Of a DNA stretch of 13,622 bases, positions 666 to 13,622 are shown piece by piece. This stretch comes from a bacterium (GTDB lineage Bacteria > Electryoneota > RPQS01): NCBI GenBank assembly GCA_023382385.1, contig JAHDVH010000007.1, forward strand, positions 1 through 13,622, in the 5' to 3' direction. How positions within the stretch are numbered: position 1 is the stretch's first letter; the number at the start of each line of letters is the position of its first letter. The notes beneath the pieces are model-generated. The model was given only the letters and a program-made list of their open reading frames with translations. It made no database searches and was not told where the DNA came from. The translations under genes were made by a program, and so were the position numbers.

Positions 666-2831
666 ATGCACCGATCGACCGCACCCCGCACTCTCTTTCT
701 TCTGCTGCTTTTGACGGCATTGAACGTCGCGTCTCCTCAGATTGCGCGTGCAGCTTGGTGGCCCTATCCCTTCAGGATTAGTGAACTCCATACGGAAGCC
801 GCAGTGCACCTTGGCCGCGTTTCGCATTACACGATTGAGGTCGGCAAGGGCAAGGTTCCGCTGACTGCGCGAATAACTCTCGAGATGGGACCGATGAGTC
901 CTTATCGAAGCGGGATATATATGGACGATCGGCAGGGTAACGTGATGCTTCAGCGCAATTTTGCCTGGCATGTCTATGTTCCCGCAAGCCGGGATCTCGA
1001 CGGGGACAACGAGCTTGAATTTGTCGTCAGCTACTCGGGGGATACGCTGGCTGGAGTGCGCGCGTACTCCAGCGTACTCAGTTCGGATACGTTATGGGAA
1101 TATGTCCTTTTGGAGTCTAACTGCCGCTGGCGGCAACGCCTGGACAAGTGGGACGTCTATTTTGAAATCGGGCCGGTTGTGAAACTAAGCGGCGACAGAA
1201 ACGGTTTGCTCCTGTTGTGCCAGAGCGGCTTCTGCCAATTGCCGCGAGGGCTGATCATGCTGGACGCCGCGACGGGTGAAGAGATTTGGCGAGAGTGGTG
1301 CGGGGGAAATAACGAGTACGTTCACGAGGTTACTACGCAGGACGGTCAGCGACTCATCGTAGTCAGCACGTCGTCGAGCGGTAACGGCGCAGTGTGGGAG
1401 GGGACGGATGACATGACCTGTTATCTGTATGCGTTACGTCCGGAGACGGGTGAACTCGTATGGCGTCGGTCCTTTCCGGGTATGTTCAGCCATGTGATGT
1501 TCCAGCCGATCACGGATTCCCTCGGCACAACGCGCGAGCTTGTCGCAGTATATATCTCTTCACCCTCCAAAGAAACTCCGGCTGCCTTGATGCGGGTGGA
1601 CCCGCGCGACGGAAGCTCCACGCAAGAGAAGATCTTTCCAGAAAGACAATTCACACCGGCGTTCCAGTTTTGGAAGTCACCGAGCGACGACTCATGGAGA
1701 GTGTATCTTACGTCGCTACCTTCCGAGCTGCAAGTCTTTGACAACAACTTTGAGTTGATTGGCGAGAAGTCCGATGTAACCGAGGTTCTCTGTTGTGGCG
1801 ATTGGGAGCTTCCTGTCGGGCCGGAGCTGCTTGTGACCTCTGTATCCGGCAAGACGCTGTATCTGAACGAGTCGCTGCACGAGAAAGCTCTTCTGGATTT
1901 CAAGTCATACAGGATAACGGAGCAGTACTTCCCCGATCAAGTCTGGCCGGAGCTGATCACAACTGACGGCACTACAATCAAGAGATTGCGCGTAGAGCCG
2001 AATCCGTTTTACTGGCGCGAAGTCGGTGTCCGGATTGTCACACCGCTCGTGCTTAGCGTGACCATGGCGTGGCTGATCGTGTGGGGAGTACGCACGCGGC
2101 GTGCGTATGTGCGCGCCCGTAACGAGAAGCTGGTCTTGGAAGGCTGGGCGCAGACGGCGTCGTTTCAGGCCCATGACACGAAGAAGCCAATTGCCGTGGT
2201 GCAGCGGGCCATCGAGAACCTCGAACTGCGATTGCGAAAGGAACATCCGGAATTCAATGTCGAGCCATTTGTCCGCCGCATGAAAGGCGAGATCTCCCGC
2301 ATGCTTCAAACCTCACGGCAGATTCAGGTGATCAGTCGCGTGACGAAGCCCAACTTGCAGCAAACGAATCTGAGTGAGCTTATCGCGACCACTGTGGACC
2401 GCATGAACACGCTTGAACAAGTCCCCGTCGTGCACGTCAATCCAGACCGGCGTGTAGACGCACAGATCGACTATCGTCTGGTAGAATCGCTGTTAGAGAA
2501 TCTTATCGGCAATGCGATGGACGCTACGCTGCAAGAGGGGGGAAGCGTGCGAGTCATGGCAGACTACGCAAGCGGGAATGGCGGAGGAGTCGAAGTCACC
2601 GTGCTGGACAACGGCAAGGGCATGACGGCTCAGGAGATTGAGGATATTCTGAATTGGAAAGGCAGCCGGAAAGCGGGCGGTCAGGGCTTGGGGCTGCTCA
2701 GCGCGAAGTGGATCGCCGAGACGCACCACGGCAGTCTGCATATAGAAAGTCAGCCGGGAATGGGAACGAAAATTACTGTGCACTTACCCGGAAATGGAGG
2801 TCCGTTATCTCCCGCAAAGACATCATCCTGA
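666..2831 (+). CDS. Sensor histidine kinase with exported beta-propeller-like sensor domain
   Basis: A 721-residue membrane histidine kinase, partner of the overlapping response regulator. Residues 1-29 form a signal peptide (hydrophobic LFLLLLLTAL core, then ARA). Residues of about 30-450 are predicted outside the cytoplasm. They contain blade-like repeats: an FG-GAP/VCBS-like DLDGDNELE at 110-118 and PQQ-propeller-like LDAATGEEIW near 199-208 and LRPETGELVW near 257-266. One transmembrane helix spans about 457-475. The cytoplasmic part has the phospho-acceptor H503 in an HDTKKP H-box, an N-box with N612 and N616, a G1 box DNGKGM at 648-653 and a G2 box GGQGLGL at 671-677, so the ATPase domain looks intact. 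There is no HAMP, PAS or receiver domain. The ATG at 666 is chosen because it gives the signal peptide, although no clear ribosome site precedes it. The ligand is unknown; a beta-propeller could bind a glycan, peptide or metal-cofactor ligand (inference). Confidence 0.93.
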   Translation: MHRSTAPRTLFLLLLLTALNVASPQIARAAWWPYPFRISELHTEAAVHLGRVSHYTIEVGKGKVPLTARITLEMGPMSPYRSGIYMDDRQGNVMLQRNFAWHVYVPASRDLDGDNELEFVVSYSGDTLAGVRAYSSVLSSDTLWEYVLLESNCRWRQRLDKWDVYFEIGPVVKLSGDRNGLLLLCQSGFCQLPRGLIMLDAATGEEIWREWCGGNNEYVHEVTTQDGQRLIVVSTSSSGNGAVWEGTDDMTCYLYALRPETGELVWRRSFPGMFSHVMFQPITDSLGTTRELVAVYISSPSKETPAALMRVDPRDGSSTQEKIFPERQFTPAFQFWKSPSDDSWRVYLTSLPSELQVFDNNFELIGEKSDVTEVLCCGDWELPVGPELLVTSVSGKTLYLNESLHEKALLDFKSYRITEQYFPDQVWPELITTDGTTIKRLRVEPNPFYWREVGVRIVTPLVLSVTMAWLIVWGVRTRRAYVRARNEKLVLEGWAQTASFQAHDTKKPIAVVQRAIENLELRLRKEHPEFNVEPFVRRMKGEISRMLQTSRQIQVISRVTKPNLQQTNLSELIATTVDRMNTLEQVPVVHVNPDRRVDAQIDYRLVESLLENLIGNAMDATLQEGGSVRVMADYASGNGGGVEVTVLDNGKGMTAQEIEDILNWKGSRKAGGQGLGLLSAKWIAETHHGSLHIESQPGMGTKITVHLPGNGGPLSPAKTSS
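2796..2809 (+). promoter_or_regulatory. Ribosome site and probable AUC start of response regulator
   Basis: A perfect GGAGG at 2796-2800, inside the kinase gene, is followed after 6 nt by ATC at 2807. That is where the receiver domain's first strand should begin. No ATG, GTG or TTG exists in frame between 2709 and the conserved acidic pocket. The upstream in-frame TTG (2654) and GTG (2708) lack a well-placed ribosome site. Confidence 0.55.
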
Positions 2832-4156
2832 TTGTAGAAGACGATCGCGCCTTGCGCGAAGAGTTGAGCGAAACGTTCGACATCGAGGGCTATACCGTAT
2901 GGGTTGCGCCGGACTGTGCGACCGCTCGCAGCAAGCTTGCGCAAAATCATCCGGACGCGATATTGCTCGACCTGCAATTGCCGGACGGCGATGGCATGGA
3001 GATGCTGCCGTGGATATTGCAGGAGCATCCGGGGATACCGGTGGTCATCGGCACGTCGCACGCGACGTATGAAAAAGCGGTAAAGGCGATAAGACTGGGC
3101 GCTTATGACTTCATCGAGAAGACAGGCGACCGTGAACAGTTGACTACTCCGATCCGCAATGCGGTTGAAAAGCGCAGACTCGAGCGGGTGCAAGCCGCCC
3201 TTCGGCGCGAACTGCGCGGCGACGTGTATCTTGTTGCGGAGAGCAAGGCAATGCGCGATCTGCTGACTCAGATTGACAAAGTTGCGCCTACTGACGAGAA
3301 GATTCTGTTAATGGGAGAGAGCGGCACCGGCAAGGGGATAATCGCGGATTACATTCAGTCGCAAAGCAAACGTGCGGGCGCACCGTACATCAAGTTGAAT
3401 TGCGCGGGAATTCCGCCGACGCTGATAGAAAGTGAGCTGTTCGGCTACGAACAGGGCGCGCATGCGACTGCTTTTCAGCGCAAGGACGGGCTCTTTCACG
3501 CCGCAGACGGCGGAACTCTGCTGCTGGACGAAATTGGAGATATGTCGTTAGGGACGCAGAGCAACTTGCTGCAGGTATTGCAGGAGGGAACAGTTCGGAG
3601 ACTGGGCCAGAATACAGCTGCAAAAGTTGATGTGCGGGTACTTGCGGCGACCAACCAGAATCTAAGTATGATGGTCAAGGAAAAGCAGTTCCGCGCGGAC
3701 CTGCTGGAGCGGCTCCAAGTCTTCGCCTTTACTATCCCTCCGCTGCGCGAGCGTCCCGAAGACCTGTTGCACATACTGGAGCTGGAACTTCAGTCGGCAG
3801 CAAAACTCTTCGGGAAGCAGCCGCTCAAACTTGCTCCCGATGCCAAAGCACTACTTCTGACATTGGAATGGCGCGGCAATGCACGCTCGGTTCAGTCTTT
3901 TGCCAAGCGATTGACGGCTTATGCAGATGGACAGACGATTGCGGCGTCTGATATCAAGCGGTTTCTGGAGCAGCCCGAGGCGGAGCCAGTAACTTACAAA
4001 TTAGCGAAGGGCGCGTGGGAGCGCGAGTGGTTAATCAGACTCTTGCTTGCGACCGGAGGAAACCGCAGCAAGGCTGCGCAAGTAGCGGACATCGATCCCA
4101 AGACGCTTTACACCAAACTCCGCGATCACGGGCTTGAGGAGTTCTCACCCGATTAG
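2807..4156 (+). CDS. NtrC-family response regulator (REC - AAA+ - Fis HTH) with altered GAFTGA loop
   Basis: A cytoplasmic DNA-binding response regulator, cognate partner of the kinase whose 3' end it overlaps by 25 nt. Numbering from the ATC at 2807 gives 449 residues, normal for the NtrC class. The receiver domain has acidic residues E11, D12 and D13, phospho-acceptor D55, T83 and K105. The AAA+ domain has Walker A GESGTGKG (170-177), Walker B LLLDEIGD with D241 and E242, sensor I (AATNQN) and candidate arginine fingers R296 and R302. A Fis-type helix-turn-helix occupies about 404-443 (TGGNRSKAAQVADIDPKTLY). The sigma-54 contact loop, normally GAFTGA, reads GAHATA (217-222), so sigma-54 activation is doubtful. 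It may be a repressor or a non-sigma-54 regulator, as TyrR-type relatives with degenerate loops are. An upstream start at TTG 2654 or GTG 2708 would add 51 or 33 non-conserved residues. Confidence 0.92.
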   Translation: MSRKDIILIVEDDRALREELSETFDIEGYTVWVAPDCATARSKLAQNHPDAILLDLQLPDGDGMEMLPWILQEHPGIPVVIGTSHATYEKAVKAIRLGAYDFIEKTGDREQLTTPIRNAVEKRRLERVQAALRRELRGDVYLVAESKAMRDLLTQIDKVAPTDEKILLMGESGTGKGIIADYIQSQSKRAGAPYIKLNCAGIPPTLIESELFGYEQGAHATAFQRKDGLFHAADGGTLLLDEIGDMSLGTQSNLLQVLQEGTVRRLGQNTAAKVDVRVLAATNQNLSMMVKEKQFRADLLERLQVFAFTIPPLRERPEDLLHILELELQSAAKLFGKQPLKLAPDAKALLLTLEWRGNARSVQSFAKRLTAYADGQTIAASDIKRFLEQPEAEPVTYKLAKGAWEREWLIRLLLATGGNRSKAAQVADIDPKTLYTKLRDHGLEEFSPD

Positions 4157-4186
4157 CTCCTGAATCTTCGCGGATTTCCCCGATTG

Positions 4187-4227
4187 TGCCAGCGTAAGTC
4201 TTTGTATTTGCGCTGGCATTTTCTTTG
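4187..4227 (+). terminator. Rho-independent terminator of the two-component operon
   Basis: Arms 4187-4199 and 4206-4218 pair over 13 bp (eight consecutive Watson-Crick pairs from TGCCAGCG/CGCTGGCA, then A-T pairs with two G-T wobbles) around a 6-nt loop. A T-rich run, TTTTCTTTG, follows. It lies 31 nt after the regulator's stop codon and separates that operon from the three small genes. Confidence 0.85.
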
Positions 4228-4277: not shown

Positions 4278-4490
4278 ATGTCCACGATTCAACACTCCCT
4301 CGACACTCTATTAACGCTGCGGGAAGCCGCGGAGTTGCTGGGAGTTTCCCGCAGCACTCTGCGCCGCTGGGCCAAGCAAGGCGATCTTCCCTACGTCAGA
4401 ATAAGCACGCGCGGAGACATCCGGATACCGCGTGCAGCTTTGCAGCAATTTATTTCGGACCGGTTAAGCCAACCTGAAGAACATTTATGA
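4278..4490 (+). CDS. Stand-alone HTH_17 / excisionase-family DNA-binding protein (first copy)
   Basis: A 70-residue protein consisting almost entirely of a MerR-like winged helix-turn-helix of the excisionase/HTH_17 family. The diagnostic run is LTLREAAELLGVSRSTLRRW (12-31), followed by a wing with ISTRGDIRIP. There is no effector, recombinase or dimerisation domain. Members usually bind DNA as excisionases (Xis) or small transcription factors. No integrase is nearby, so a regulatory role is more likely here. It is 24/49 identical, by hand alignment, to the third gene of the cluster (4723-4935). Its TGA overlaps the ATG of the next gene (ATGA), implying translational coupling. No convincing ribosome site precedes the ATG. 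Confidence 0.85.
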   Translation: MSTIQHSLDTLLTLREAAELLGVSRSTLRRWAKQGDLPYVRISTRGDIRIPRAALQQFISDRLSQPEEHL

Positions 4491-4717
4491 AGAAACTATC
4501 CCAAGCGCCCGAGACAACTAAGTCATCGAAAGAGGCTTCCCAAATCGTCCTGCCGGAGATGGTTGTGCCAGTGGATTGGCGCGGCGCGACAAACAAGTTT
4601 CAAAGGCGGTTTCTCCGCGCCGTGCTGGCACTGCACAAGGGCAATAAGACCCATGCTGCCGAAGCATTAGGCATCGCACGCCGGACGATTCAATTACAAC
4701 TTCATCCACAGGACTAA
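4487..4717 (+). CDS. Stand-alone Fis-type HTH protein
   Basis: A 76-residue protein. About 35 residues of polar, lysine- and serine-rich N-terminus precede a Fis/HTH_8 helix-turn-helix (about 37-72), with the signature GNKTHAAEALGIARRTIQLQ. This is the domain normally found at the C-terminus of NtrC-type activators, here without receiver or AAA+ domains. By hand alignment it shares about 10/35 positions with the HTH of the regulator at 2807-4156 (GN, AA, I, T and L among them). It could be a nucleoid-like factor, or a competitor or partner of that regulator at its sites (inference). It overlaps the preceding gene by 4 nt and ends 5 nt before the next, so the three genes form one transcript. 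Confidence 0.8.
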   Translation: MKKLSQAPETTKSSKEASQIVLPEMVVPVDWRGATNKFQRRFLRAVLALHKGNKTHAAEALGIARRTIQLQLHPQD

Positions 4718-4722
4718 CAGAG

Positions 4723-4935
4723 ATGAACGATGAGCAGTCCTTACTAACCATTCGTCAGGCCGCGAAACTCATGGGAGTCTCCGTCTCAACACTACGTCGT
4801 TGGTGCCGCGCTGGGCACATCGAATCCCTTCGCATAAACTCGCGCGGCGACCGGCGCTTTCAGCATCATCACCTTGAAGCGGTTCAGCGCCCAAGGTCGT
4901 CAGGCCGTCCGAGAAAGGATTCAGCGGTGCGCTGA
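4723..4935 (+). CDS. Stand-alone HTH_17 / excisionase-family DNA-binding protein (second copy)
   Basis: A 70-residue paralogue of the protein at 4278-4490. The core LLTIRQAAKLMGVSVSTLRRW and the wing INSRGDRRF align with it without gaps, whereas the surface positions just after the recognition helix differ (CRAGHIES against AKQGDLPY). The C-terminal tail is basic (RPRSSGRPRKDSAVR) and could add non-specific DNA contacts. It is the last gene of a three-gene unit that ends before the hairpin at 5015-5047. The divergence between copies suggests an old duplication with separate DNA targets. No nuclease, integrase or toxin partner is encoded beside it. Confidence 0.85.
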   Translation: MNDEQSLLTIRQAAKLMGVSVSTLRRWCRAGHIESLRINSRGDRRFQHHHLEAVQRPRSSGRPRKDSAVR

Positions 4936-5163: not shown

Positions 5164-6507
5164 ATGTTAATTCGTAATCTCCACGCCGCCTATACTGAAG
5201 AGTTTGAGAACGGCCCGATTTGTATCAGGACGGACGGCCCGCAAATCGTCGAAATCGCTCGCAGTCTGAATGCACATTCCGGTGAGGCGGTGATTGACGG
5301 ATCGCATTTTGTCGCGATTCCCGGGTTGGTGAACACGCATCACCACTTCTTTCAGGCCTTGACGAGATGTTTGCCGGGGGCGCAGGACTCCGGCTTGTTT
5401 GACTGGCTGGTGTTTCACTATCCAGTCTGGAAGCACTTCGACGAAGAGATGTTCAGAGCGAGCTTCCGGCTGGCAATTGCGGAACTATTGCTTTCGGGAT
5501 GCACATTCACCTGTGATCATCACTACCTTTTCCCCGGCAGGGTGCAGAATGATAGTCTTGCAATGGAGCTTGAGTGTGCAAGCGAGCTTGGAATTCGTTT
5601 TGCTGCATTGCGCGGTTCGATGACACTTGGGCAGTCAAACGGCGGACTGCCGCCGGATGAGATTGTGGAGCGGGACGACGAGGTGCTCACACATTGCGAA
5701 CGATTTGCGAAGGAGCACCACGACTCCGGCCGCTTCTCCATGCGGCAGGTGCATCTGGCGCCTTGCAGTCCGTTCAATGTCACTGCAGAACTGATGAAAG
5801 ACACCGCAATACTGGCGCGAAAGCTCGGCGTTCGCCTGCACACTCACTTGGCGGAAACGACGGATGAGAACGAGTTCTGTTTGGCCAGATACGGTAAGCG
5901 GCCGTTAGCGCTGATGCAGGAGTGGAACTGGTTGGGACCCGACGTGTGGTTTGCGCACGGGATATACCTGAATGACGATGAGATTGGCCTGCTGGCGAGC
6001 ACTGGAACAGGCATCGCACACTGTCCGTCGTCCAACGCGCGGCTCGGTTCAGGCCGAATGCGTCTGAAAAACATGTTGGAGGCAGGAGTGCCGATCGGCA
6101 TCGCGGTTGATGGATGTGCGTCCAATGACAGTTCTCATATGCTCGCCGAGTTGCGTCAAGTGCTGCTGCAACATCGCTCGAATGACGGCGCGCAAGTATT
6201 GACGGCACGACAGGTGCTGGAGCTGGCAACAGCGGGGTCGGCGAAGCTGCTCGGACGCGACGATGTCGGAAAACTGCGTGTCGGAATGTCGGCGGACATT
6301 GTCTTGTTCGACTGGCATGAACTCGGCTACGCGGGCGCAGCCGACCCGATTGCAGCGCTGTTGTTCTGTGCACCGACCAGACCGCACACGGTAATCGTGA
6401 ACGGGCAGTTGGTCGTTCGAGACAGGACATTACTGAACGCAGACGAAGCTGAGATTGCAGCTCACGGGCGAGCACAGGCTCAAAGGCTGTTAGACTCGTC
6501 GCGATAG
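5164..6507 (+). CDS. Amidohydrolase, probable 8-oxoguanine deaminase
   Basis: A 447-residue cytoplasmic metal-dependent hydrolase of the amidohydrolase superfamily (TIM barrel flanked by a composite beta-sandwich), normal in length. Metal and catalytic residues are in place: H59 and H61 in NTHHHFFQ, H228 and E231 in HTHLAET, H265 in WFAHGIY, D316 in VDGCASND. The subfamily is indicated by stretches I recognise from 8-oxoguanine deaminases: AQDSGLFDWL, LAELLLSGCT, LRGSMTLGQSNGGLPPDEIV and LAPCSPFNVT. That enzyme converts 8-oxoguanine to urate and ammonia, salvaging or clearing oxidised purine. Related guanine deaminases and chlorohydrolases such as AtzB/TrzN-type enzymes are the alternatives. 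One oddity is C318 where relatives I recall have serine (DGSASND). It stands alone between two terminators, and no purine-catabolism neighbour is visible. Confidence 0.88.
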   Translation: MLIRNLHAAYTEEFENGPICIRTDGPQIVEIARSLNAHSGEAVIDGSHFVAIPGLVNTHHHFFQALTRCLPGAQDSGLFDWLVFHYPVWKHFDEEMFRASFRLAIAELLLSGCTFTCDHHYLFPGRVQNDSLAMELECASELGIRFAALRGSMTLGQSNGGLPPDEIVERDDEVLTHCERFAKEHHDSGRFSMRQVHLAPCSPFNVTAELMKDTAILARKLGVRLHTHLAETTDENEFCLARYGKRPLALMQEWNWLGPDVWFAHGIYLNDDEIGLLASTGTGIAHCPSSNARLGSGRMRLKNMLEAGVPIGIAVDGCASNDSSHMLAELRQVLLQHRSNDGAQVLTARQVLELATAGSAKLLGRDDVGKLRVGMSADIVLFDWHELGYAGAADPIAALLFCAPTRPHTVIVNGQLVVRDRTLLNADEAEIAAHGRAQAQRLLDSSR

Positions 6508-6588: not shown

Positions 6589-7326
6589 CTACTCGACGAT
6601 GGCTTTCACGTAGTAGATGTGCTCGATGCCCAAGCCGGTGCTGTCGAGATATTCTGTGACATCAACCGTGTCAATCGGCGCGAAGGGGACATTGGCGGGC
6701 ATTTCTTCGGCCCGATAGATCACGTATCTCGGCGGATCCGGCAAAGGCACTCCAAACGTTCCAAGGATCACCTCTTTCCAACGCAAATGCGCGGCTGTGC
6801 CATTCCAGAAGATGGTCAGGCTGTCCGGCGCCAACGGCAGTTGTGTGCAGACGAACAAGGCGGGCGGAGAAAACGTTCCGGGCATAAAGGATCCGTCCGG
6901 CCTGCGGTTGCTGAAACTGCCGGAAATGGGTACTTGTCCGCATTCCCGCATCACTAAGCCGAATGTGAACAACTCACCTGGCCCAGCCCAATAGGCGGTG
7001 CTGAACAACGTGGCACCGACTTCCAACCAGTTCGGGGCGGCGGGAATGTGATCATTATACCGAAAATCCAGACCCGGCCGCCCGGCAATCAATGACCCGG
7101 GAGCGGGCGCCACGACAAGATCGATGTCATTCGTGTCATAGACCATGTAGACGTTGAATGAACGGACCGTGTCCGAGGCGGTCATGTAGGCGGAAAACAG
7201 GATCGTATCGCCGATCTGCGCAAAGGAGGTGTCCGGTTCAAAGTACATTCCAGCCGCGCAAGCGGGATTCCGTAGCGGAATCGCAACGCACCAAACGGCT
7301 ACCAGCATAGCCACAACAGGTCTCAT
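6589..7326 (-). CDS. Secreted protein with cohesin-like domain and Fn3-like tail
   Basis: A 245-residue exported protein. The start is ATG at 7326, preceded by AGAGG five nt upstream; an in-frame GTG six nt further up (7332) is less likely. The first 25 or so residues are a signal peptide (VVAMLVAVWCVAI, ending near CAAG). The next 120 or so resemble a cohesin-like beta-sandwich: MYFEPDTSFAQIGDTILF, then FNVYMVYDTNDIDLV, the usual strand-turn-strand opening of that fold. The last 70 or so (WNGTAAHLRW to IYYVKAIVE, with YVIYRAEE) look like a fibronectin type III module. There is no T9SS sorting domain or lipobox, so it may stay periplasmic or be held by a partner. It lies downstream of the giant protein in the same direction, separated by a terminator. 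The cohesin call is by pattern only. Confidence 0.72.
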   Translation of the reverse strand: MRPVVAMLVAVWCVAIPLRNPACAAGMYFEPDTSFAQIGDTILFSAYMTASDTVRSFNVYMVYDTNDIDLVVAPAPGSLIAGRPGLDFRYNDHIPAAPNWLEVGATLFSTAYWAGPGELFTFGLVMRECGQVPISGSFSNRRPDGSFMPGTFSPPALFVCTQLPLAPDSLTIFWNGTAAHLRWKEVILGTFGVPLPDPPRYVIYRAEEMPANVPFAPIDTVDVTEYLDSTGLGIEHIYYVKAIVE

Positions 7327-7347
7327 ACACACCTCTTTGAAAGATTC

Positions 7348-7403: not shown

Positions 7404-7673
7404 TTACCGAATCAAGAGCATCTTCTTGACATCGGTAAATCCGTTCACACTGATGGTATACATATACACACCGGTCGAGAGGCTGCTGGCGTCAAACGTC
7501 ACCGTATGACGGCCGGCTTCCAGCTCGCGGTCAACGGCCGTCGCGACGACCTGACCCAGCGTGTTGTAGACCATGATCTTCACGTGACCCGCATCGCGCA
7601 AGTCGAACCTGAGGTTCGTCGTCGGATTGAACGGGTTCGGATAGTTCTGATACAGAGCATAGTTGTCCGGCAG
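7404..7673 (-). other. T9SS C-terminal sorting domain
   Basis: The last 89 residues (1984-2072) begin LPDNYALYQNYPNPFNPTT, contain VKIMVYNTLGQVV and LSTGVYMYTISVNG, and end KKMLLIR. These are the hallmarks of the Por-type C-terminal domain that directs proteins through type IX secretion, usually with later cleavage and surface anchoring. Confidence 0.93.
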
Positions 7674-10600
7674 CGACGGCGTGCTGAACAGCGGAACGGT
7701 TCCGCCTTCAACTTCGATGATTTCGCCGGTATTGTCGAACATGCTCACGGACGTCAGGGCCAACTCGCTGTTGGCCGTCAGAGCACGCGTCACGCGGAAC
7801 GTCACGGTGCCCAGGATCGCGTTGCCTTCCAGAGTGGACCAACCGCCGCAGGAAGCCGCTACGAAGCCGACAACACCGCTGAGACCCGTAACAGGAGAAG
7901 TCTTAGCAAACAACATTCCGTCAGGCGACAAAGCCGTGCCGGTCGTCGAGGTGACGATTTCGAGGGTCGTTTCGTCGTAACTAAGAATCGCTTCCACAGC
8001 CTTCACCGTATTGGCTTCGTTCCCGTACAGGGCGACAGTCACGGTGAACTCGCTGCCGACTTCCATCGCCGCGTCCGCCGGAATTTCCAGCGCAACCACT
8101 GGAGCTTCGTCAAGACGGTTGAACGGACGATACTGCAGCGGGTCAGGCTGAATCATGAATTCCTTCGCTTCACCCACCGGCGTCACTTCCGCATAGTTGA
8201 AGCTGAACGGCACAAGGTCCTGGAAATTGATCAGACCACCATCATCAGGATTGGGAATACCCTTACCGATATTTCCATTCTCAACGGGAGTATTGACCGG
8301 ACCGATGTTGCGGAATCCTCCGGCATTCGTAAAGTAGACTGCAGACAGCGAAGCCAAGTCGTCGTTATCCACGCGGCCGCGCGAGTACGGGTCGCCAACG
8401 TCGTCCGCCGTGCTGAAATCACCCAACCAGTAATTGGTCGAACGATCGGCATTCTGCAGCATCGCAACCGGTGCATTCAATGACCAGTTTCCGCCTGCGT
8501 CCTTGACGAACGTCACGTAGCGGTAAATGTCGCGATAAGCCGCCGCATTACCGTTGCCGTCCACCCACGTGCCCTGTGCATCCAGCCAATAGGTTGTCGG
8601 GCCGTCAACATGCGTGTAGAAATCACCGCGATTGTTGTTGGCACCGTAAGTCGCGGAAGTCACCGTTCCAGTCGGCGCGGTCTGCGTGGCCACCAAGGTC
8701 CAGCCTGACGGCGGAACGCTGGTCACATCGTAGTTGGAGAGGGTATTCCATAGATCATTGGCGTATGCGGGATACTCACCCGACAGCGGACTGCGGTAGA
8801 TACGCATTTCCTGAGCATCCGACCCGGCAGTCCACGACCACGCGAGCCACACACCGAGGTGCGTCGGGCGCGCATCGAAGAACGTCACTGTATTGCCGGG
8901 AGCCGTCAGGTCGATGCACATCGTGAAGGAACCGGAGGCGTCACAATTTCCAGCGCAATCGCAAACGCGCACACCAAACGAGTAGTATTCACCGTTCGCA
9001 GAATTCGGCACGCCGCTGGAGCCGACAATCCAATTCCACAGCGTCGTCGCATCTGCATCGTCAAACGGCCAATTCGCATTGTCAAACGGATCGGCGACAT
9101 TTAACGTGTCTGTTCCGCCAACGAGCCAGATACTCATGACCGAAGGAACAACGGCGCCGCATGGCGTTGCGTTGCCAAGGTAGCTGATGTCGAGTTCGTT
9201 GTCGAGATCCAGATAAGTATTGGCACCGTAACAACCGGTGGTGTCGGGAGCAACGACGGGCGAGGGCGCCGTGTTGTCGCGGCCGACATTTTCCAGATCA
9301 ACCGTCGTGGCTACGTTACATTCGGTGTCCATTAGATGCAGCGTCAGCGTGTTGCAGCCTTCGACCAGCAGGCCGTAGAAAGTCGCGGCGTCAGCAGCCG
9401 ACGGGAACGTCGGAGCGTAGCCAGAGCTTTGCGTCGGACCAAACAAGCCGAACGAGCCGCCGCCCGGCGCGAAAGTCACCCACGCCGAATCGAGATCAAC
9501 CGCGTTGTCCGTAAACGTCGCACTGAAGGCATTAATTAGCTGCGAAGCGTCGCCGAACGCGCAGGTCGCGCTGTTCGCAAAGTTGCTGATGACCGGAGGC
9601 GTGCAGTCCACCTCAATTGCCACCACGCCAAGTTCCAGCTCGTTGACATGATTGCCGCCCATAATGTCGATCCACAACGAGCTCACACCGGTAATGGGAT
9701 AAACACCAGTGGGGGCCGTTACCGTCAAGGGGATACAGGCGACATACTTGGTGTAATCACCCGAGCTGTAGGGAGTTTCGAAGCCCATGTCGACGATGAC
9801 GCAGTCGCCTGTGGCCATTGCGTACGCGCTGATCAGATTTGGATCTTCATTGGCGCCGGGTGTGACAATCCCCAATGGTCCTGCAGTGAATCCCGCAGGA
9901 AGCTGGAGAATGACCTGCAGGTTCGGCAATCCGGCAGTTCCGAGAGTCAAGTAGAGATTGGTTGTGTTGCAATCCGTATTGCAGCCCACGAGATCATCAC
10001 TCAGCACAAAGTTGACGTCCGCGCAGCCGTTCGGGTTCGGATTGCTGTCCACGTTTACAGGTGCGGCGCCCGTGATGACGTAGGTTCCCGGATAGCCCGC
10101 ATTGCTGGTGTAATCTGAATAGCAGTTGCTGTCCCATGTATGGGCCGCCGTGTTGTCGAAAGCGTTGTTGGTGTTGGCAAAAGAGTTGTCCGTCACCGTC
10201 GCGTTGTCAATCGTTCCTCCGGAGGTCTGCAAAAAGACTCCGTAATTCCAGTCTTCTACGACGCTGTTGGTCAATGAAACATCCAGATTGTCACCGGTTA
10301 CATTGGCGCGCACGCCATAACCTGTGGAACCATTTCCGATGATCGTCGCACCGCTAATCGAAATAGACTCATCAACGTCAAGGCTACGTGCACGGTCGTA
10401 TGAGTCTGCATCGACTTCATCTTCGTAGAGCTGTGGCAGAGCAAAGTCACTCCCCAACAGCGCGCCGCCCGTGGACCACGCCAGCACACCGTGTTTCGCT
10501 TCCACAGTAACTGCATTCGTGGCCGTCAAGGTTCCGCCGTTCATGGTGAAACCTGCATCATCGGCGAACACACAGACATGACCGTTCAGCACATTCGAAT

Positions 10601-13600
10601 TCGTCAGGGTCACACCGTCCGTGAACAAGAAGATTCCGGCGGCAGAACTACCTGCGGCTGTAAACACAACTCCATCCACTGTGCAATTAAGAAGCGTACC
10701 GCTCGTCCCGGTCGCATACTGAAATCCCGTCTGTGCAATGATTCCCGTCGGCCCTACTCCTGTCACGTCGACGTTCGTGCAATTCACATGCGTCCCCAAC
10801 CCGGAGACAGACACACCGAGCCGCTGGAAATCCGAAATAGTGACGTCTGTCAAGGTGACGGTATCGGGAGTGGAACTGTGGTTCACCGACACGCCAACGC
10901 CGCGCGCAGAATTGATCAACGGATTGTCGCGGACGCCAATAATATTCACGTTGGTCATGGTGCCGCCGGAGTTCCAGAACGCGACGCCGATAAGGCGATG
11001 ATTGCCGCCGCCTCTGCCGTCGCCGTCGACCGTGAGATTGGAAACATGCACCGTCGAATTATCGAGGAAAAGCACTGGCCGATTCGGATTGCCTGAGGTC
11101 AGATAAGTATCGGGCATCGTTCCTGCAGGTGCCTTGATAATCGAACTTCCGACTCCCGAGCCGATGATGTTCAGATTCGTGTAGCCGATGGCGTGTACCT
11201 GCCCAATATAGGTTCCGGGTGCCAGATTGATCGTGCTTCCCGATACAAGAGCCAATGCTTCCATGATGTAGTTGCTGGCGCCGGATATCGGGCTGTCATC
11301 ATCCACCCAAAGATTTGAGAAGTTGCCGGTATAACCCGGATTGTCGTGAGTGCCGACCAAACCCATCCACGGAGAATAATCCACGGATCCAGTAAATATT
11401 GAACCGAATGCAGGAGCATCGGAACCCCACCAGTTACCTGACGCATTGAGGATTCCGGGACCATCCCAACGAACTGCCTTTACCCCACAATTCGTAATCG
11501 AGTTCCCGTAGATCTTGGTATTCACCGGAAATACTCCGGGCGTGTAGAACTGCCAGACACGAATGCCTTCGGCGACACCGGTAATGTAGTTATTCTCGAT
11601 GCGGGCATTCGTCACATAGCCCAGCAGCTGAATGCCGCGGAAATTCGTGCCGCCGCCGCTGCCGATGATTGTGTTGTGCAGAATACGCGGGGTGACAATT
11701 TCACCATCTGCGGGCGTTACGTCTGCATCATTGCCCATTCCGATTGCGCGCGCGCCGTCTTCAACATTGGTGAAGACATTGTCGGAAATCTCGAAATTCG
11801 TATACTTGCCCGACCGGATGGCGGGGCCGTAGTTCGTTGCGCTGTTGACATAGATTTCACAGCGGTCGAACGTATTGTGGTGAACTTTCTGCAGTGTCGT
11901 GACGTGGTTTGCACTGTACGTCATGTAGAAGGCCAGCCACGAAGACGTGAAGGTGTTGTACTTGACTTCCGTTTCACCCAACTGCCGTTCAAAGAGCAGT
12001 ACGTTGCTGTAGAAGTCGTGTGCGTCGTTGTTGCTGAATTCGACTTTGGCCTGCATCCCGTAGCCTGCAATCAAACCGAAGTTGCTGGCCGGAGTGGGAT
12101 CCGTGTAGTAGCTGAATCCTTCAAGTTCATTATTCGAGATCTTGATCAACGAGGCGGGATTGGAATTGCCCGAGGCCCACATCCCGTTCATTCTGCCGGT
12201 CTTGATCTTGAAACCGTCCACGGTGACATTGCCTGAGGGCAGGTTGATCGTCACCACCGCATGGGAATCGTCAATCGGCACATAGCCCGATGCGTCAATC
12301 ACCGAAGTGACCCCTGCACCTTGCAAAGTCAGCGCCTTGGTGATGGACAAATCCCATTCACTATACGTTCCCGCGCCGCACAACACCACGTCGCCGGCCG
12401 CAGCCCAGTCGATTTCGCGCTGGATGTTCGCACCGATTTCCTTGACGTTATTATACGTGTAGGGCCCACTCATGTAGGAATACGATCCCTGAGCGGTCGG
12501 CGGGTTGGTTCCAAACATGACCTTCTTGTCAAAGGTGTTGTTGTTCCAATAACCCACCCAGTCGAAATCGCCGTAGTTTGCAAAATTACCGCGATGGCGA
12601 ATGTATAACGCCTCGGAATTCGAGAACGTATTTCCGGAGATCACTGCGGCACCCACGCTGTAGACGTACCACGGCACTCCGGATCCGGAGCCGTTGAAGC
12701 TGATCGCCGCCCAGTAGTTCCCGGGCCAATCCATGTCGAACACGTTGTTGATGACTTGGCGACTCGCCACGGCACCCGTATATCCCGCACCGTTCGCGAT
12801 ATCGAGGCTGGTCCCATAGTCGAAGAGGTTGCCTTCAATGTGGTAACTCTGGACGTAAGAGATATCATTCCCCGAATCAAAACGGAAGTCGTTAATGTAG
12901 CACGACATTCCATCCGTGATTTGGCAGTACTTTAGGGTGAAGTCGTCGCCGATGACTTCGACGGTCTTGTTATAGTCCGGACCTGTCTGGAACAACTCCA
13001 AACCGGTAACAGTGATTCCGTTTGCTTCTACGAACATGCCGCTCGGTCCGAACCCGTTGGTGGCGTTCAGTCCGACACTTGCGGCCACCGCGCCGTAGGA
13101 CGTGATCGGCGAACCTACTGCATCGACTCCCTGCAGCGTGACATCGTCTTTCCCTGCGGGGATGAACAAGCCAAACTGGTATGGACCCGACGCATCGAAA
13201 AGGAAACATCCGGGTGTCGCTTCCGTGTAGGAGCCGGGCAGCACATTCACCGTCCCATTCGCGGCGACGGCTGCGATACCTTCCCGAATCGTTGCGAAGG
13301 CGTCCACGCCCCATGTCAGCGTGTTGTCAAACAGGTCGACGCTGGTTTGATCTGTCCAGCTGTCATCAACCCAGACAATCGCCTCCAAGTCAAGGCTGCT
13401 GTTGTCAACGCGAGGAGCCAGCCACGGACCGTTCTGACCATGAATTGCGCTCAGAACAGGATCCATATGGCCCGTCATTCGCGTATCAGTCGTTGGCGCT
13501 GCCTTCTGAACCGGCGCCGCCAACTGTGGCAACGCACCATTGCGCAAGCCGCGCGGAAGATCGTCCACCGCCCAGCTGTTGCCGGCAATCACGAAGAGTG

Positions 13601-13622
13601 CCAGCAAGGTGAATACAAATAA
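7404..13622 (-). CDS. Giant T9SS-exported multidomain surface protein, 5' end outside window
   Basis: At least 2072 residues, numbered from the first codon in the window. The frame is open to the edge, and its start reads LFVFTLLALFVIAGNSWA, part of a signal peptide whose ATG lies beyond 13622. Residues of about 83-1200 are repetitive, Asn- and Gly-rich right-handed parallel beta-helix in three blocks. About 1205-1339 is a beta-sandwich, possibly cohesin-like. From C1340 come two Ig-like segments opening with TPPVISN and NTAPSP, containing paired cysteines (CDCAGNC). About 1574-1720 is Fn3-like (WLAWSW, MRIYRSP). Then follow dockerin-like loops (1744-1755, 1791-1802), a cohesin-like domain (about 1840-1976) and a T9SS sorting domain (1984-2072). 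This implies export across the inner membrane by Sec and the outer membrane by T9SS. The beta-helix could bind or cleave polysaccharide, but no catalytic motif can be assigned. The in-frame TTG at 13607 is not a credible start. Confidence 0.9.
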   Translation of the reverse strand, partial: LFVFTLLALFVIAGNSWAVDDLPRGLRNGALPQLAAPVQKAAPTTDTRMTGHMDPVLSAIHGQNGPWLAPRVDNSSLDLEAIVWVDDSWTDQTSVDLFDNTLTWGVDAFATIREGIAAVAANGTVNVLPGSYTEATPGCFLFDASGPYQFGLFIPAGKDDVTLQGVDAVGSPITSYGAVAASVGLNATNGFGPSGMFVEANGITVTGLELFQTGPDYNKTVEVIGDDFTLKYCQITDGMSCYINDFRFDSGNDISYVQSYHIEGNLFDYGTSLDIANGAGYTGAVASRQVINNVFDMDWPGNYWAAISFNGSGSGVPWYVYSVGAAVISGNTFSNSEALYIRHRGNFANYGDFDWVGYWNNNTFDKKVMFGTNPPTAQGSYSYMSGPYTYNNVKEIGANIQREIDWAAAGDVVLCGAGTYSEWDLSITKALTLQGAGVTSVIDASGYVPIDDSHAVVTINLPSGNVTVDGFKIKTGRMNGMWASGNSNPASLIKISNNELEGFSYYTDPTPASNFGLIAGYGMQAKVEFSNNDAHDFYSNVLLFERQLGETEVKYNTFTSSWLAFYMTYSANHVTTLQKVHHNTFDRCEIYVNSATNYGPAIRSGKYTNFEISDNVFTNVEDGARAIGMGNDADVTPADGEIVTPRILHNTIIGSGGGTNFRGIQLLGYVTNARIENNYITGVAEGIRVWQFYTPGVFPVNTKIYGNSITNCGVKAVRWDGPGILNASGNWWGSDAPAFGSIFTGSVDYSPWMGLVGTHDNPGYTGNFSNLWVDDDSPISGASNYIMEALALVSGSTINLAPGTYIGQVHAIGYTNLNIIGSGVGSSIIKAPAGTMPDTYLTSGNPNRPVLFLDNSTVHVSNLTVDGDGRGGGNHRLIGVAFWNSGGTMTNVNIIGVRDNPLINSARGVGVSVNHSSTPDTVTLTDVTISDFQRLGVSVSGLGTHVNCTNVDVTGVGPTGIIAQTGFQYATGTSGTLLNCTVDGVVFTAAGSSAAGIFLFTDGVTLTNSNVLNGHVCVFADDAGFTMNGGTLTATNAVTVEAKHGVLAWSTGGALLGSDFALPQLYEDEVDADSYDRARSLDVDESISISGATIIGNGSTGYGVRANVTGDNLDVSLTNSVVEDWNYGVFLQTSGGTIDNATVTDNSFANTNNAFDNTAAHTWDSNCYSDYTSNAGYPGTYVITGAAPVNVDSNPNPNGCADVNFVLSDDLVGCNTDCNTTNLYLTLGTAGLPNLQVILQLPAGFTAGPLGIVTPGANEDPNLISAYAMATGDCVIVDMGFETPYSSGDYTKYVACIPLTVTAPTGVYPITGVSSLWIDIMGGNHVNELELGVVAIEVDCTPPVISNFANSATCAFGDASQLINAFSATFTDNAVDLDSAWVTFAPGGGSFGLFGPTQSSGYAPTFPSAADAATFYGLLVEGCNTLTLHLMDTECNVATTVDLENVGRDNTAPSPVVAPDTTGCYGANTYLDLDNELDISYLGNATPCGAVVPSVMSIWLVGGTDTLNVADPFDNANWPFDDADATTLWNWIVGSSGVPNSANGEYYSFGVRVCDCAGNCDASGSFTMCIDLTAPGNTVTFFDARPTHLGVWLAWSWTAGSDAQEMRIYRSPLSGEYPAYANDLWNTLSNYDVTSVPPSGWTLVATQTAPTGTVTSATYGANNNRGDFYTHVDGPTTYWLDAQGTWVDGNGNAAAYRDIYRYVTFVKDAGGNWSLNAPVAMLQNADRSTNYWLGDFSTADDVGDPYSRGRVDNDDLASLSAVYFTNAGGFRNIGPVNTPVENGNIGKGIPNPDDGGLINFQDLVPFSFNYAEVTPVGEAKEFMIQPDPLQYRPFNRLDEAPVVALEIPADAAMEVGSEFTVTVALYGNEANTVKAVEAILSYDETTLEIVTSTTGTALSPDGMLFAKTSPVTGLSGVVGFVAASCGGWSTLEGNAILGTVTFRVTRALTANSELALTSVSMFDNTGEIIEVEGGTVPLFSTPSLPDNYALYQNYPNPFNPTTNLRFDLRDAGHVKIMVYNTLGQVVATAVDRELEAGRHTVTFDASSLSTGVYMYTISVNGFTDVKKMLLIR
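7690..8105 (-). other. Cohesin-like domain in the giant protein
   Basis: The segment opens with APVVALEIPADAAMEVGSEF, continues with VKAVEAILSYDETTLEIV and closes with GNAILGTVTFRVTR. This is the usual order of motifs in cohesin-like beta-sandwiches. It sits directly between the dockerin-like loops and the sorting domain. Confidence 0.6.
8179..8426 (-). other. Dockerin-like double loop in the giant protein
   Basis: Two EF-hand-like loops fit the dockerin type I spacing. DPYSRGRVDNDD (8358-8393) keeps D1, G6, V8, D9 and D12 but has Y and R at ligand positions 3 and 5. NPDDGGLINFQD (8217-8252) keeps N1, D3, G6, I8, N9 and D12 with G at position 5. Each is followed by a helix-like stretch (LASLSAVYF, LVPFSFNY). 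The gap between loops is longer than in classical dockerins, so calcium binding by loop 1 is doubtful. Confidence 0.5.
10030..13380 (-). other. Three-block parallel beta-helix region of the giant protein
   Basis: Three blocks begin with a similar cap. Block 1 starts at about 13376 (VWVDDSW, then FATIREGIAAVAANGTVNVLPGSYTE), block 2 at about 12449 (IGANIQREIDWAAAGDVVLCGAGTY) and block 3 at about 11312 (LWVDDDSP, then INLAPGTY). Each then runs into short turns such as ITVTGLELF, ISNNELEGF, IENNYITG and VHVSNLTVDG. The pattern 'cap - amphipathic helix - G-x-V-x-PG-x-Y - helix rungs' is familiar from pectate-lyase-like or NosD-like secreted proteins of environmental bacteria. Block lengths are about 0.9, 1.1 and 1.3 kb. 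Confidence 0.7.

Follow-up and report, generated by a model that had tools for sequence, protein, structure and literature searches.

What does an NtrC-type regulator do when the loop by which its class is recognised has been rewritten? The GAFTGA motif of the L1 loop serves as the annotation signature for calling AAA+ regulators sigma-54 activators, and its third and fourth residues, Phe and Thr, are regarded as nearly irreplaceable. In PspF, Phe-85 touches conserved Leu residues of sigma-54 region I (PMC9770992), and F85Y is the only active variant at this position (PMC2941729); the same Tyr-only rule is given in a survey of about 5,000 enhancer-binding proteins (PMC3162934). The neighbouring T86A variant retains ATPase activity but does not engage the closed complex, and mixed PspF rings with T86A subunits do not support transcription efficiently (PMC4132715). 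The survey treats as inactive those proteins in which F3 is replaced by anything but Tyr, or T4 by anything but Ser, Glu or Asp, and lists as tolerated Y for F3; S, E and putatively D for T4 (Ser-4 being tolerated in BkdR); and D and putatively E, A, H, N or S for G5 (PMC3162934). The 13,622-nucleotide stretch of contig JAHDVH010000007.1 analysed here (henceforth the window) encodes a regulator that violates these rules.

Pfam analysis identified the three-domain architecture of NtrC-type response regulators, with Response_reg (PF00072), Sigma54_activat (PF00158), the AAA lid (PF25601) and HTH_8 (PF02954) all above the cut-off (Table 1); the Sigma54_activat match (204.8 bits, residues 145–309) places the sequence GAHATA at the L1 position. 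The receiver residues D57 (the phospho-acceptor), T85 and K107 (P0001 numbering) are present, K107 being invariant and D57 nearly so in alignment A1. The original prediction held that Walker A, Walker B, the arginine-finger candidates and the HTH are intact, and this was borne out: K178, the switch Asn N200, D243/E244, R298/R304, the sensor-II R362 and the Fis-type HTH are all retained. In the alignment of 44 sequences five of the seven Walker A positions are invariant and T176 is nearly so, and the alignment shows R298 as invariant and R304 as nearly invariant. Judged by these residues, both the ATPase and the receiver look functional. The protein also deviates at E179, E363 and L364. The AlphaFold2 model of the full protein (mean pLDDT 89.8) has NtrC1, NtrX and NtrC4, and also LuxO, as its closest solved folds, and the best sequence matches are Aquifex NtrC1 (4l4u, E 1.1e-89) and NtrC4, in both of which GAHATA aligns column for column with GAFTGA. 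The Aquifex NtrC1 and NtrC4 proteins (4l4u, 1ny5, 3dzd), which are group I sigma-54 activators, share with the window protein the REC-AAA+-Fis HTH order, Walker A and B and the arginine fingers, but have GAFTGA, whereas the window protein has GAHATA and the sensor II changes E363S and L364V.

Table 1. Features of the window, with the grounds for each assignment
Feature	Position	Strand	Grounds
Sensor histidine kinase, partner of the regulator	666..2831	+	ORF, Pfam, orthologue in L068
NtrC-type response regulator (REC - AAA+ - Fis HTH)	2804..4156	+	Pfam, AlphaFold2 model, orthologue L032:1504-2853
Walker A, GESGTGK	3314..3334	+	P0001 residues 172-178, including K178
L1 hairpin region, residues 210-240	3428..3520	+	Most conserved stretch among those tested
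L1 loop GAHATA replacing GAFTGA, residues 219-224	3455..3472	+	Translation, alignment, orthologues
Walker B Asp-Glu, D243-E244	3527..3532	+	Motif inspection and alignment
Arginine-finger segment FRADLLERL (candidates R298, R304)	3689..3715	+	Motif inspection and alignment
Terminator-like hairpin, 14 pairs, then TTTCTTTG	4186..4219	+	Just 3' of the regulator, before the small HTH genes
Small HTH_17 (excisionase/MerR-like) protein, 70 aa	4278..4490	+	Pfam HTH_17, 61.4 bits; L068 has a homologue at the corresponding position
Small stand-alone Fis-type (HTH_8) protein, 76 aa	4487..4717	+	Pfam HTH_8, 32.6 bits; L068 has a homologue at the corresponding position
Second small HTH_17 protein, 70 aa	4723..4935	+	Pfam HTH_17, 43.3 bits
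Amidohydrolase resembling 8-oxoguanine or related deaminases	5164-6507	+	Pfam Amidohydro_1, 192 bits
ORF beside the 2067-aa protein	6589-7332	-	No Pfam match
2067-aa repeat-rich secreted protein	7404-13607	-	Cohesin domain, Por_Secre_tail (type IX secretion) C-terminus

The loop is encoded by GGC GCG CAT GCG ACT GCT (G-A-H-A-T-A), within ...ESELFGYEQGAHATAFQRKDGLFHAADGGTLLLDEIGDM..., and its context in the regulator is ELFGYEQGAHATAFQRKDG. The replacement of GAFTGA by GAHATA was described correctly in the original prediction, which however counted changes at positions 3 and 5 only; there are three substitutions, F3H, T4A and G5T, one of which removes the key contact Thr-4, while the length of the loop is unchanged and the reading frame unbroken. 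F3H and T4A fall outside the tolerated sets of the survey, and G5T is not listed there (PMC3162934). The anticipated impairment of the sigma-54 contact agrees with the published mutational rules, which predict no normal sigma-54 coupling by GAHATA.

Could the loop be an artefact, or the regulator a relic? A second species from this genus (G001) has, in the same operon, an orthologue (L032) that is identical at 67% of its amino acids and carries the loop GSHATA, and another genome of the same family (G004, L033) has GSHAKA, so the loop is shared by the orthologues and does not scatter among them. All four H-A-T-A codons differ between the window and L032, each of them synonymously (CAT/CAC, GCG/GCC, ACT/ACG, GCT/GCC). 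Because GSHATA is written in different codons in the second species, whose assembly is independent, and the frame is uninterrupted, a sequencing or assembly error, or a frameshift, is ruled out with next to no residual doubt. Between the same two species synonymous sites are saturated (pS 0.83). Identity in the hairpin (residues 210–240) reaches 87%, with a pN of 0.086; the AAA+ domain as a whole has 67% and 0.206. Since the hairpin is so conserved and the H-A-T-A codons have changed only synonymously despite this saturation, the loop must be under selection. Drift in a decaying regulator that no longer contacts sigma-54 would fit the deviations at E179, E363 and L364 and the long branch of the whole protein; going by tree branch lengths, its evolution outpaces that of the canonical orthologues in the two genomes. 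Neutral decay is nevertheless ruled out by the hairpin with its four synonymous codon changes, and other lineages have the H[AS] pair as well, all of which makes this explanation very improbable. We regard the reality of the loop, its conservation and the selection on it as almost certain.

How widespread are such loops? When 84,980 species genomes were searched with the pattern ELFG[HY][EK]xG-x-H-A, five true regulators and one chance match came back. Three of the regulators, with GAHAEA, belong to three species of Gemmatimonadaceae; one, with GSHAMA, is an FHA-type regulator of Troglogloeales; and one, with GSHAKA, comes from a metagenome-assembled genome deposited as Calditrichaeota and is the gene already met in G004, which belongs to the window's family. 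An open survey, in which positions 3–5 were left free and the position-3 codon was required only not to begin with T, yielded only three H-A loops and one chance match in the 39 genomes of the window's phylum, where the histidine loop is thus a rarity: position 3 is Phe or Tyr at 409 sites and His at three. The open survey of 395 Gemmatimonadota and 295 Nitrospirota genomes, together with H-only surveys of two narrower groups, added GSHSTA and GAHSTA from two Nitrospirota. Position 4 is Ala or Ser in all nine true histidine loops, giving the consensus G[AS]H[AS]xA, although the open survey did not impose this residue; in the AAA+ core the histidine group is clearly set apart from the canonical proteins by loop positions 3 and 4 only. 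No H[AS] loop was found in the viral contigs searched, and the plasmid search returned 2,367 records with relatives (whatever their loop), all of them less than 60% identical. None of the candidates L062 (Ruminococcaceae), L071 and L085 is a regulator; their match to the loop pattern is fortuitous.

Other non-canonical loops were met in the course of these searches. GATNEA, GAIPGA and GAIEGA were confirmed in one regulator-like ORF each, the latter two in AAA+ regulators of Nitrospirota (L093 and L098), while GALTDA and GSLAGA are pattern matches only. The GATNEA loop belongs to an NtrC-type regulator of Gemmatimonadota (L086 in G167) whose Walker B reads LDGIGD, with Gly in place of Glu; judging from this motif, the protein is possibly ATPase-dead as well as loop-altered. 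The Gemmatimonadaceae GAHAEA regulator (L061, L064, L065) lies in a conserved gene order of kinase, NtrC-type regulator, OmpR-type regulator and kinase.

In a tree of 62 rows calculated with the loop masked, the Nitrospirota pair falls inside canonical relatives (starred branch, support 95/80). The histidine label requires three changes on this tree, several branches of which are long, and the topology with a single histidine clade appeared in none of 200 bootstraps. The AU test did not reject such a clade (p 0.177). On these phylogenetic grounds a repeated origin of the histidine loops is likely, though a single origin is compatible with the AU result.

The original prediction asked whether the genome encodes RpoN, and it does: there is one rpoN (C3:175160-175633, E 1.3e-60), beside nine canonical F/Y-loop regulators. 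RpoN is also present in G001 and in G041–G044; it was not found in G004/G045, a genome only 56% complete. The idea that the regulator is matched to an unusual sigma-54 fares poorly, because a single rpoN serves a genome with nine canonical-loop regulators; a private sigma-54 is, from gene content, unlikely. A dedicated second sigma-54 was likewise rejected, the window genome having a single rpoN and the additional rpoN-like match in G001 being weak and below the family cut-off. Searches for -24/-12 elements on both sides of the operon in the two species, and in intergenic DNA next to the Nitrospirota members, were indecisive. Upstream of the operon neither species has a good element (the best scores 0.76 of 1 in the window), though target genes may lie elsewhere.

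The reading that we place first, at a little less than an even chance, is that of an NtrC-type AAA+ regulator, intact and controlled by phosphorylation, whose recoded loop is in use and which acts independently of sigma-54, most likely at promoters of another holoenzyme. From the identity of the domains, the kinase would sense an extracytoplasmic signal via its propeller domain and phosphorylate D57, and the AAA+ ATP-binding ring would assemble on DNA through the Fis-type HTH. The ring would act without the standard Phe/Thr contact to region I and, like NtrC of Rhodobacter and Caulobacter, might activate or repress promoters that another holoenzyme uses, the retained L1 being redirected to a different contact, be it DNA, polymerase or another ring. 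Such independence is supported by the three loop positions that break the tolerance rule of the survey (PMC3162934), by the ATPase-active yet unproductive T86A variant of PspF, by the NtrC proteins of Rhodobacter and Caulobacter, which lack GAFTGA and regulate sigma-70 promoters (PMC10274813), and by the conservation of the loop at synonymous saturation alongside intact catalytic residues. The missing -24/-12 element points the same way but says little, because the genes controlled by the regulator may lie elsewhere. The comparison with R. capsulatus and Caulobacter NtrC cuts both ways: these are also NtrC-type two-component regulators with intact ATPase motifs and no usable GAFTGA, but their L1 is deleted (PMC10274813), as it is in most known relatives of this kind, and this hallmark is absent from the window protein, in which a full-length loop and its hairpin are kept and three residues substituted. 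That the length, the framing Gly and Ala and the flanks are kept and selected suggests a partner still reading the loop. Also against independence, RpoN occurs in every histidine-loop genome tested that is not visibly incomplete, and Desulfovibrio vulgaris DVUA0100, with the loop GVATGV, has been inferred to activate sigma-54 promoters without the Phe (PMC4641369).

Or does the regulator still activate through sigma-54? The loop is under strong selection, which may mean just that. G[AS]H[AS]xA would then be an alternative L1 in which His and the small position-4 residue engage region I, perhaps with weaker or differently regulated coupling; we consider this a real possibility, although it falls clearly short of an even chance. 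It would account for the purifying selection and for the retention of loop length, Gly-1, Ala-6 and the hairpin flanks, and agrees with positions 3 and 4 alone distinguishing the histidine group, with the fully conserved ATPase and with the RpoN of G000, G001 and G041–G044. Ser-4, found in two members, is the residue tolerated in BkdR, according to the survey (PMC3162934), and GVATGV of DVUA0100 seems compatible with sigma-54; that loop resembles the window loop in its normal length and in lacking Phe at position 3, but unlike it has other residues, keeps Thr-4 and belongs to a single-component protein proposed to use sigma-54 still (PMC4641369). Against coupling stand the PspF results (only F85Y active, T86A inactive), the window loop itself, with non-tolerated residues at two positions and an unlisted one at the third, and the lack of a credible -24/-12 site near the operon. 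Taken together, sigma-54-independent action is only moderately favoured, being slightly more likely than sigma-54-coupled action.

An unlikely alternative is that the protein acts on other regulators, forming mixed rings with canonical enhancer-binding proteins or competing for their sites and so damping sigma-54 genes. The nine canonical paralogues, the retained AAA+ interface residues and the inefficient PspF rings containing T86A subunits (PMC4132715) are compatible with such a role, which is however purely inferential; the regulator has its own kinase and operon, and, of the paralogues in its genome, those aligned share only 34–37% identity with it.

The recoded loop is a variant within an already known class of regulators with non-GAFTGA loops. 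VpsR, YplP, TyrR, DhaR and HupR, sigma-54-activator-type AAA+ proteins with a defective GAFTGA, are classed as not or probably not sigma-54 dependent in the survey (PMC3162934); their loops carry substitutions or deletions of other kinds, with a clear deletion in VpsR and YplP, and the text consulted makes no mention of G[AS]H[AS]xA. We tentatively propose, with considerable reserve, that G[AS]H[AS]xA is a second working form of L1 that has appeared repeatedly and independently. It would define a subclass of NtrC-type proteins in which ATP hydrolysis is coupled either to some partner different from canonical sigma-54 region I or to region I itself by different chemistry. A selected loop that replaces both Phe-3 and Thr-4, with the same His and Ala/Ser in several phyla, means either an alternative way of remodelling sigma-54 or a motor re-used for another partner, and either outcome would alter the annotation of such genes.

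The conserved start of the regulator has no ATG, GTG or TTG in the window, whereas the orthologue L032 has GTG there. GGAGG at 2796–2800 is followed by GTT (2804) and ATC (2807, a candidate start), and the sole standard start upstream is TTG at 2654; either an unusual start codon or a wrong base within 2796–2809 may explain this, and the start codon is uncertain. The partner kinase has a signal-peptide-like start, a PQQ/beta-propeller-like extracytoplasmic domain (PQQ_2 match weak), a transmembrane segment, an HDTKKP H-box and HATPase_c (73 bits); its orthologue adjoins the orthologous regulator of G001 in L068 and is 37% identical over its length, the kinase half being the most similar. The hairpin behind the regulator is only suggestive of a terminator by its sequence, the number of terminator-like sites in the region being at chance level. 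Three tiny HTH genes then follow in a row behind the two-component pair (4278–4935), the second overlapping the first by 4 nt, and the first two are kept in G001 (L068:7396-8063). No nitrate-respiration genes were seen in the window. The operon of G001 adjoins a nitrate-respiration cluster (L068:8155-17986, named by reading translations), which contains nitrate/nitrite MFS transporters, cytochrome b/Rieske proteins, Nar-like subunits and a RIC-type iron-sulfur repair protein.
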